Made by a program: the position numbers and the translations under genes. Positions 5,335-8,142 of a stretch of DNA of 57,189 nucleotides are shown here, one piece after another (position 1 is the stretch's first letter; the number at the start of each line of letters is the position of its first letter). This DNA is from a virus, in IMG/VR virus record IMGVR_UViG_3300035703_000112, positions 1-57,189 of that record; one strand, given 5' to 3'. The notes below the pieces were generated by a model, which ran no database searches, was not told the DNA's origin, and saw only the letters and a program-made list of their open reading frames with translations.

Positions 5335-7182
5335 TTAGAAGTTTATATCTGTTTCAGGAAATTCTCTCCATATTTCTTGTGGAGTGAAATCATTTTTTTC
5401 CTGCATCTTAGATTTTTTAGCAAATAATGGGTCGCAAGGCATTTCGCTGTTACTATTAATATATCTCTTTTTAGCCCAGTTTAGTGTTAAAGGGAAGTGC
5501 CCAAGTTTACCCCCTGTTCTTTTCCTTTTAAGTTTCTGGACATAAACCTCAACATCTGGGCTATTCTTATCTTCATGAAATCTTGGCCTATAATAAGCTA
5601 AAATTTGGTCAGACTTATTAGCCCACATACTACCGCCATGCAAATCGTAACTATCTGGTACTGGAAGTGAACGGTCTTGATTATATGTTGGGTTTTTAGG
5701 ATGAGCAATTATGCAGTAAGATATATTATTCAATAAAGCGAATCTTTTGATATCTTTAAGTATTGTACTAAGATACTGGTCATCTCTTTCATATGCCTTT
5801 TGAGTCCTATCTAATTGATTAAATGGGTCAATCATAACTCCATCAATTCCTTTTTTCAAAATAAGATATCTAAACTTCTCATGTATAGAATTTATGTCAT
5901 GCTCGCTTTCTGGATAAACATAATAGATATGCTCAGAAATAAAATTACAAGCCTCTGTATATTCATCTACTGTCATATCCTTTAACCACTTCCCGGCATA
6001 CATCTCCACGATATCATCATAAAAGTCATTTGGAGGATAATTCTCAGGAGAAAATATCGCCCACTTCCAACCATCCCAAATAGATTTAGTAATCATCAAT
6101 TGAAGCATAAAAAATGATTTGCCATGATTACCGTACCCAGTACACAAAGTAATATCTCCCTTTTTCCATCTGAAGAAATCATCCATTTCACCAAACCTTG
6201 TCGTTGGTGCAAGTTGAACTCCTTCTTTAAAAGATTCCAGCATATCAGGGAATATGCTTTCTAAGTAATAAACACCATCTACAGGAATCAAGTTGGATTC
6301 AAGTAATATTTTTATTACCTCGTCCTTGCCATATTTAAGCAATACTTCATTTAAATCTTTACAATCATTTGGATATTCAACTACTCGACATTTCTCAACT
6401 CCAAGCCTTCTAACTAATTCATCTTTCAATTTTCTACCAGCATCATCTGAGTCAGTTGCAATGATAAATTCATCAATAGAAGACAACCATTCGCTACAAT
6501 TATCAAGATATTCTAATTGTTGGTTTCCTTTACTTGCACCATTTGGAACTGATAATACAGCCCACCTTCCAAGTTCGTGCTCTACCACTTCTCCATCATC
6601 ATTTGGTTCTGGTTCATAATTGTTTCCAAAACCACATTCATATGCAACTAACATATCCCATTCGCCTTCAGTTATAATAGCGCAATGTCTTCCCTCAATA
6701 GTTTGCATACCAAAGAATATCAATTCAGCATCTTTAATCAATCTAAAGTTTTTAGCTCCATCTCTATACTTTGCATTTACAATTTGGGAATCTCTTATAT
6801 ATGGGAAAACAATACAACGCTCTTTTTTCTGTGTCGCTGGCATCCATTCTTCTTTTCCATGTATGAAGAATTTTTTTAATGTTTCATGTGAAACACCACG
6901 ACTTTCAGAGTATGCAACGATACGCTCATTCAACTGAATATTTTCGAGCATTGATTTATCCGGCCTAGAATATTTTTTTGACGATTCCCGGCGTTCAAAA
7001 GATTTTACGTTTCCACGCCAACCACAATGATGGCAATTGTAAGTTCCCTCAGTTACATTAACTGACAAACAAGGGTCTTTTTTATTTCTGCGGGAATCTG
7101 AGCACTTTGGGCACACTGTTTTTTCCTGTCCACTTCTTCTTCGGATTTTGATATCAAGTTTAGTAAGCTGGTTGTAGTACAT
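5335..7182 (-). CDS. DNA primase-helicase (T7 gp4/Twinkle-like)
   Basis: A 615-residue two-headed replication enzyme. An N-terminal zinc ribbon uses C24, C27, C50 and C53. A TOPRIM primase core has ITEGEWD around residue 172 and TDSDDAG around 242, with an acidic insertion between them. The RecA-type hexameric helicase domain has Walker A GYGNHGKS near 347-354 and a Walker B-like stretch (GVMIDPFNQ) near 445. It would make RNA primers and unwind the fork, as T7 gp4 does. No phage DNA polymerase is present in the window, so it probably works with a host polymerase or one encoded elsewhere. The C-terminus (PETDINF) is acidic and could bind partners. Confidence 0.92.
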   Translation of the reverse strand: MYYNQLTKLDIKIRRRSGQEKTVCPKCSDSRRNKKDPCLSVNVTEGTYNCHHCGWRGNVKSFERRESSKKYSRPDKSMLENIQLNERIVAYSESRGVSHETLKKFFIHGKEEWMPATQKKERCIVFPYIRDSQIVNAKYRDGAKNFRLIKDAELIFFGMQTIEGRHCAIITEGEWDMLVAYECGFGNNYEPEPNDDGEVVEHELGRWAVLSVPNGASKGNQQLEYLDNCSEWLSSIDEFIIATDSDDAGRKLKDELVRRLGVEKCRVVEYPNDCKDLNEVLLKYGKDEVIKILLESNLIPVDGVYYLESIFPDMLESFKEGVQLAPTTRFGEMDDFFRWKKGDITLCTGYGNHGKSFFMLQLMITKSIWDGWKWAIFSPENYPPNDFYDDIVEMYAGKWLKDMTVDEYTEACNFISEHIYYVYPESEHDINSIHEKFRYLILKKGIDGVMIDPFNQLDRTQKAYERDDQYLSTILKDIKRFALLNNISYCIIAHPKNPTYNQDRSLPVPDSYDLHGGSMWANKSDQILAYYRPRFHEDKNSPDVEVYVQKLKRKRTGGKLGHFPLTLNWAKKRYINSNSEMPCDPLFAKKSKMQEKNDFTPQEIWREFPETDINF

Positions 7183-7307: not shown

Positions 7308-8033
7308 CTAGGTTCCTGCATCAACCTCGGAAAGCGGTTTGAGCAGCTCCGGCACGGCTTCGATGTGGTAAGGCCGAATTTCCTTTTTTGCCCATAGTGC
7401 GAATTCTTCCTCGGTCATAGGCTGGCACGTTTCATCTTCGAAAACCACAACTTTCAACTTAGGCAAAACATACATCCCAACTTTTTTTGGTTTGGGAACT
7501 CGTGGTGAAATCCTTTTTTCTTCTTTTTCTTTTTCTTTTTTATTTATTTTTTCTTTTTCTTTTTGTTCTTTTTTAGAAAAGTCCTTAGTTTCTAAGTTAC
7601 TTTCTTTTATTTCATTTCTTTCTTTTATTTTATTTATAGCATTGCTGTCGCATTCCGAACGCAATGCGTTCGCATTACCCCATCTGTAACTAGCTGATTC
7701 TCTTGCTTTTATAGATTTAGAATTTACCTCATCTAACCTCCTCTGCACCGACTTGGAACCGAAAAAATTCTCCGAAATTTCGAACAAACCGAAGTCCTCA
7801 ACAACACTCTTTACAACGTCGCATTGCGCTCGCAAATCGAACGCAATGCCTTCGTAGTCCGTTCGCAATGCGTTCGCATTATGATACAAATCCTCCACAA
7901 TTGACCAGTAAATTCCATAGCCAATCATGCCGTGTTTTCTAATCAAAATTTTAATTTTTTCGTCATTTCTGGCGTTATAATCGTGGCTGAAGTAAAAGGT
8001 TAATTTAGGCATAGGAAAAGGTGGCTTGCCCAT
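7308..8033 (-). CDS. DUF4373 (Lin1244/Lin1753-like) replication protein
   Basis: The N-terminal domain has the features of DUF4373 proteins: YFSHDYNARNDEKIKILIRK, GYGIYWSIVEDLYH and FGSKSVQRRLDEV. These phage and plasmid proteins are DnaD-like and associated with replication initiation or helicase loading. The middle is a highly charged Lys/Glu linker (about residues 150-175) and the C-terminus is Pro-rich. The frame is open to a GTG at 8057. ATG 8033 (MGKPPFPMPKLTF) or ATG 8012 (MPKLTFYFSHD) is a better start and leaves the inverted repeat at 8040-8142 non-coding. Unusual palindromic DNA repeats encode NANALR peptides within the domain. Confidence 0.75.
   Translation of the reverse strand: MGKPPFPMPKLTFYFSHDYNARNDEKIKILIRKHGMIGYGIYWSIVEDLYHNANALRTDYEGIAFDLRAQCDVVKSVVEDFGLFEISENFFGSKSVQRRLDEVNSKSIKARESASYRWGNANALRSECDSNAINKIKERNEIKESNLETKDFSKKEQKEKEKINKKEKEKEEKRISPRVPKPKKVGMYVLPKLKVVVFEDETCQPMTEEEFALWAKKEIRPYHIEAVPELLKPLSEVDAGT
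7656..7881 (-). repeat. In-frame palindromic repeats within the DUF4373 gene
   Basis: GCAATGCGTTCGCATTA occurs exactly at 7661-7677 and 7865-7881, and CGAACGCAATGC at 7656-7667 and 7838-7849. A related GCATTGCGCTCGCA lies near 7821. The core AATGCG-TT-CGCATT is an inverted repeat. On the coding strand these units give NANALR peptides at two places in the protein. Both GC content and repetition differ from the flanks. Confidence 0.8.
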
Positions 8034-8039
8034 GCTGTT

Positions 8040-8142
8040 GCTAAAAGTTATAACCACCCCAAACGAGCGACTTTAACGCAGCACAAGACAAGCCTAATTT
8101 TATCAGTAAAATGGTAATGAAATCAATGTTATAACTTTTAGC
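8040..8142. repeat. Perfect 15-bp inverted repeat with 73-bp spacer
   Basis: GCTAAAAGTTATAAC at 8040-8054 and its exact complement GTTATAACTTTTAGC at 8128-8142. They lie just upstream of the DUF4373 gene (start 8033 or 8012). Each arm also contains the internal palindrome GTTATAAC. Possible uses are a pair of operator sites, a looping element or part of an origin. No other copies were seen in the window. Confidence 0.7.

Follow-up and report, generated by a model that had tools for sequence, protein, structure and literature searches.

The viral genome analysed here carries, inside a gene annotated for replication initiation, two clusters of short repeated sequences that are at the same time coding sequence, and this raises the question of whether the repeats serve the protein, in which they spell a recurrent peptide, or the DNA in which they are written. 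An earlier note on this locus had proposed two readings, i.e., a palindromic element that the coding sequence tolerates or iterons bound by the encoded initiator. The window, that is, the whole stretch analysed, is the 57,189-base IMG/VR record IMGVR_UViG_3300035703_000112 (positions 1-57,189, one strand).

The initiator gene and its repeat clusters

The product of the gene belongs to the Pfam family PF14297, Lin1244_N (formerly DUF4373), with E=6.6e-12 and 46.4 bits against a cut-off of 25, and it matches PHROG 2562, 'replication initiation protein' (E=3.2e-23); NCBIfam assigned no family to five representatives. The longest open reading frame spans positions 7308-8057 on the minus strand, beginning with a GTG at 8057; judging from the sequences of relatives, whose proteins start with M[APS]K at the corresponding place, the ATG at 8009 is the likelier start. 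The next gene downstream places the initiator in a replication context (Table 1), and in annotated phages the genes next to it encode helicase loaders, helicases or protein P. The cumulative GC-skew minimum falls near 8-10 kb of the window; since gene orientation diverges at the same place, the two are confounded and the minimum is no test of an origin. Just upstream of the likely ATG there is also a perfect 15-bp inverted repeat, GCTAAAAGTTATAAC (8040-8054 and 8128-8142, arms 73 bases apart), present too in the close relatives L001 and L002, which is possibly an operator or a second regulatory site.

Table 1. Position and content of the features of the putative replication region in the window.
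Feature	Position	Strand	Content and evidence
Primase/DnaB-type helicase gene, next downstream of the initiator	5335-7182	-	PHROG 239, E=7e-84; DnaB_C, E=1e-8
Initiator gene, DUF4373/Lin1244_N N-terminal winged-helix domain	7308-8009	-	PF14297; PHROG 2562; starts of relatives; AlphaFold
A-rich tract, 17% GC, candidate DNA-unwinding element	7510-7638	-	Immediately follows cluster 2 when read along the coding strand; composition, period, frozen codons
Putative iteron cluster 2	7631-7674	-	TGCGAACGCAT, TGCGTTCGGAA, TGCGACAGCAA, TGCTATAAATA; phasing, frozen synonymous codons, structure
Putative iteron cluster 1	7817-7878	-	TGCGAACGCAT, TGCGAACGGAC, TACGAAGGCAT, TGCGTTCGATT, TGCGAGCGCAA, TGCGACG; phasing, frozen synonymous codons, structure

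The sequence GCAATGCGTTCGCATTA has exactly two copies in the whole record, at 7661-7677 and 7865-7881, where 0.13 matches are expected by chance even allowing three mismatches. The sequence CGAACGCAATGC has exact copies at 7656-7667 and 7838-7849; allowing two mismatches at most, it gives nine matches against 2.2 expected, eight of which lie within 7639-7876. The earlier note was thus right in placing exact copies in two clusters inside the DUF4373 gene, and also in describing them as in frame, coding twice for NANALR, and GC-richer than their flanks (0.51-0.53 in the clusters, 0.39 in the gene and 0.17 in the A-rich tract). The unit that it had proposed, a palindrome, was not borne out: read on the coding (minus) strand, the clusters resolve naturally into tandem direct copies of an 11-bp unit, with consensus TGCGAACGCA[A/T], and the palindromic look arises because the unit TGCG-AA-CGCA is nearly self-complementary except for the central AA.

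Cluster 1 comprises five full units plus 7 bp (about 5.6 units) and cluster 2 three units plus a partial one (about 3.5), the units of the window being more degenerate than those of its relatives. The arrays match themselves at a level of ~0.6 for lags of 11, 22 and 33 versus 0.1-0.4 for other lags, and the lag-11 score of the window gene, 15, was reached by 6 out of 3000 synonymous-codon shuffles (mean 6.5). According to the positions retrieved by a scan of viral contigs, the spacing between the two clusters varies from 163 to 216 bp; therefore, no helical phasing between them is claimed. At the place of the A-rich tract, relatives have a T-poor tandem tract, either AAAGG (5 bp) or 7 bp long in its unit; DUF4373 genes show the 5-bp period, and most DUF1376 genes (38 out of 44) a period of 7.

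The AlphaFold model of the protein has a winged helix at residues ~17-84 (pLDDT ~95), consisting of helices 17-43, 52-59 and 63-72 and a wing at 77-84, a long helix at 86-111, and a low-confidence segment at 119-172, which is probably disordered. Cluster 1 encodes residues ~44-64, that is, the loop, helix 2 and the start of helix 3 of the predicted winged helix, and cluster 2 encodes the start of the predicted disordered linker (NANALRSECDSNAI).

Constraint on the repeat DNA and its distribution

In 18 non-redundant relatives sharing less than 92% DNA identity, the mean excess of synonymous homozygosity was 0.85 in the codons of the repeat units versus 0.27 elsewhere (P = 1.7e-6), and the codons of the AAAGG tract after cluster 2 were likewise frozen. 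Moreover, the 11-mer core is read in all three codon phases, both in DUF4373 genes (171/36/6) and in DUF1376 genes (103/82/9), so that one DNA core yields NANAL, MRTHS or CERNA according to the frame. As 11 is not a multiple of three, a period of 11 bp is incompatible with a simple peptide repeat. On these comparisons, selection is acting on the repeat DNA itself. The earlier note had taken peptides varying independently of the DNA repeat as an argument against its reading; the opposite is seen, the DNA staying while the peptide changes with the frame. A few further codons, AAA, GCA, AGA and TCA (residues 97-104, approximately 7698-7721 of the window), located about 25-40 bases before cluster 2, are nearly frozen in relatives and may mark an additional DNA element or a short block that is recent.

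The distribution of the repeat was checked at the DNA level only, by scanning 2.9 million viral contigs (IMG/VR) with the 19-mer TGCGAACGCAWTGCRAACG. It occurs at least 131 times; among the 131 matches listed, 123 fall within ORFs of the DUF4373/DUF1376 type on the same strand, four in two further ORFs that are DUF1376-like by eye, and four (L130, L133, L141 and L142) look like chance or unrelated sites. Most of the non-DUF4373 host ORFs that were sampled belong to DUF1376 (PF07120, Pfam), and in DUF1376 genes both cluster positions recur, at residues ~53-55 and 100-126. Units resembling TGCGAACGCA have a density on the coding strand of 7.3/kb in DUF4373 and 5.7/kb in DUF1376 genes versus 0.2-0.5/kb in the flanks; two of the protein searches that gathered relatives used some peptides overlapping the repeats, and the densities from those groups are not unbiased. 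The intragenic arrangement recurs in hundreds of phages and in two protein families, and the TGCGAACGCA[A/T] repeat is also present in plasmid pCT01 of a Clostridia species. One viral contig, IMGVR_UViG_3300032323_002596, harbors two near-identical, oppositely oriented initiator loci (L006 and L012; 15.8-26.2 kb and 33.7-44.1 kb), either a duplication or an assembly artefact.

The repeats of other initiator subfamilies

The earlier note had suggested searching other DUF4373 genes, and 11-bp repeats are indeed present there, with a sequence differing by subfamily. Distant DUF4373 genes harbor different sequences at the equivalent place of the linker, again with 11-bp spacing: GTTCAACCACA in L207, GGGTCATGACC in the E. 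coli phage mEp515, and repeats of the (A)GTCATGA type in Vibrio, Pantoea and Pseudoalteromonas phages. The period was examined in two groups of non-redundant genes gathered by N-terminal peptides only. In both groups, lag 11 was the strongest over synonymous shuffles, with 12 out of 18 and 20 out of 36 genes beating every shuffle at this lag, versus one or two genes at lags 13-14. The sequence, then, changes with the initiator subfamily, and the helical spacing stays. In a DUF4373 gene from a Bacteroidota genome (L324), an unusually long 11/33-bp array of the TTCAACG type fills the linker.

The domain is also found with different partners. The mEp515 protein combines the DUF4373 N-terminal domain and its own iterons with a C-terminus homologous to P22 gp18/O-like proteins, and the pCT01 protein has a DnaD-like C-terminus. 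Furthermore, the linker of YdaU (DUF1376) from the Rac prophage of E. coli K-12 (L223, 2620-3477) carries repeats resembling TGTTCAAAC, TGTTGAAGT and TGTTTGAAC (TGTT[C/T][A/G]AAC-like), spaced by some 11-13 bp and recurring at 33 bp. The Rac prophage holds an active origin, oriJ (PMC3945230), which may lie in ydaU.

A putative replication origin inside the initiator gene

What was found in the window corresponds to the layout of an intragenic iteron origin, with phased tandem repeats under DNA-level constraint inside the initiator gene and, next to them, an AT-rich candidate unwinding element. We consider it probable that the two clusters are the iterons of a phage replication origin embedded in its own initiator gene, where the N-terminal domain would bind, the tract would melt and replication would start. 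Initiator binding, melting and origin firing are steps that we infer from the repeat unit, its phasing, its constraint, its restriction to one kind of gene and the layout of the region. In such an origin, the 11-bp direct repeats would correspond to one per helical turn, and the winged helices of the DUF4373 N-terminal domains would line up next to one another on the phased 11-mers, along a single face of the DNA. Once assembled, this complex would melt the strand-asymmetric A-rich tract adjoining cluster 2, the replication helicase would be loaded, and the C-terminal part of the initiator together with the neighbouring primase/helicase would start replication. Cluster 2 would occupy the code for a disordered linker, a part of the protein that accepts many peptides. 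Cluster 1 lies in the code for the winged helix itself, so that the residues of the DNA-binding domain would be partly constrained by spelling their own likely target.

Of the two readings of the earlier note, the iteron part is supported by the DNA-level evidence (synonymous freezing, multi-frame use, an 11-bp period with subfamily-specific sequences, and the replication gene context), and the palindromic-element part is contradicted by distribution and phasing. An in-frame insertion of a mobile RPE/REP-like repeat, tolerated in the protein, would agree with a unit that is nearly palindromic and GC-richer than its surroundings, but its chances appear negligible: exact copies lie at only two places in the phage, the exact 19-mer has no match in 395 Bacteroidota genomes, and the repeats are tandem, direct and phased by 11 bp. 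Among the viral matches listed, the 19-mer is almost entirely confined to one functional class of genes, those of the initiator type, and the NANALR peptides, which had been described as insertions, occupy identical positions in close relatives, with no empty alleles seen. An RPE/REP palindromic coding element was rejected, as the exact 19-mer had no dispersed copies in the 395 Bacteroidota genomes and only rare ones outside initiator-type genes among the viral matches listed. Hardly more credible is the idea that only the NANALR peptide is selected and that the DNA is similar as a consequence; the peptide is indeed conserved in close relatives, and cluster 1 falls within a predicted folded domain, yet this explanation was rejected because it is contradicted by the frozen synonymous sites, by the reading of one DNA in different frames and by the loss of the 11-bp period upon synonymous shuffling.

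The remaining alternatives concern what recognises the sites, and to what end. If a host protein rather than the phage initiator bound the 11-mer, this would account for one 11-mer being kept in two Pfam families, in genes of phages or plasmids that come from Bacteroidota as well as Clostridia; we regard this as improbable, given that other subfamilies of the initiator domain carry other sequences with the same period, so that the sequence tracks the initiator, and given the absence of the exact 19-mer from the 395 Bacteroidota genomes. Somewhat less improbable, although still unlikely, is that the repeats are binding sites of the initiator with a mainly regulatory role (autorepression or copy control), the origin being elsewhere. 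The sites do lie inside the initiator gene itself, and autoregulation by 11-bp sites would leave an identical signature, one that by itself does not separate regulation from initiation. On the other hand, a mid-gene position next to a low-GC, strand-asymmetric tandem tract fits the layout of an origin better than that of an operator, and the mEp515 site lies between the N-terminal domain and the O-like C-terminal domain, which is the place of lambda-type origins (PMC5043065).

Origins of this general kind are known. In lambda, the iterons of ori are inside the initiator gene O and adjoin the A+T-rich region that opens; each of them is an inverted repeat of 19 bp to which O binds as a dimer (PMC5043065). 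The likeness to the lambda O/P22 gene 18 type consists in origin iterons within the initiator gene and in the O/gp18-type C-terminus of the mEp515 DUF4373 protein. The differences are the 11-bp direct repeats, an N-terminal domain of another family (PF14297/PF07120) and the second cluster inside the code for the DNA-binding domain; membership in the lambda O type was rejected, as the unit is an 11-bp direct repeat and not an 18-19 bp inverted one. SPP1 oriL, located in gene 38, combines direct repeats with an AT-rich unwinding element, both within the gene that encodes the origin-binding protein, and the SPP1 helicase loader and helicase are phage-encoded (PMC6316719); the window gene resembles it in layout only, and SPP1 differs in having a second, distant origin. 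In the RepA_N protein of pSK41, an N-terminal winged helix binds Rep boxes central in rep, and the origin sequence codes for the linker (PMC5703833), much as here a winged helix is predicted, the repeats lie within the gene and a repeat array codes for the start of the linker. A profile search found no solved relative, and two Foldseek structure searches against the PDB returned no RepA_N protein among the best 50 matches, only weak generic winged helices (Crp/Fnr, CodY and MarR); membership in RepA_N was thus rejected, and the resemblance is one of way of working. In the iteron plasmids P1, RK2 and R6K, direct repeats in helical phase lie beside an AT-rich unwinding element (PMC5043065), whereas here the array is inside the coding sequence of the initiator.

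The intragenic iteron origin is, then, a known kind; what is new is the 11-bp direct unit, the cluster in the code for the DNA-binding domain, and the occurrence in two Pfam families in different frames. The literature searched, subscription papers aside, describes no origin for DUF4373 or DUF1376 genes, which are widespread phage and prophage families. If our reading is true, the 11-bp phased array would allow the replication origin of hundreds of phages to be located by sequence alone, and a function, origin recognition, would be assigned to both DUF4373 and DUF1376. It would also be a clear example from nature of a single DNA segment constrained both as the target of a protein and as the code for that same protein, in frames that differ among relatives. 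We give about even chances to a broader proposal, namely that the winged-helix domains of DUF4373 and DUF1376, together with their 11-bp iterons, make up a self-contained initiator-plus-origin cassette that serves a very large share of tailed phages and is swapped whole between O-like, DnaD-like and primosomal C-terminal modules, in which the sequence of the DNA-binding domain would be partly dictated by its own binding site, in whichever frame this is read.
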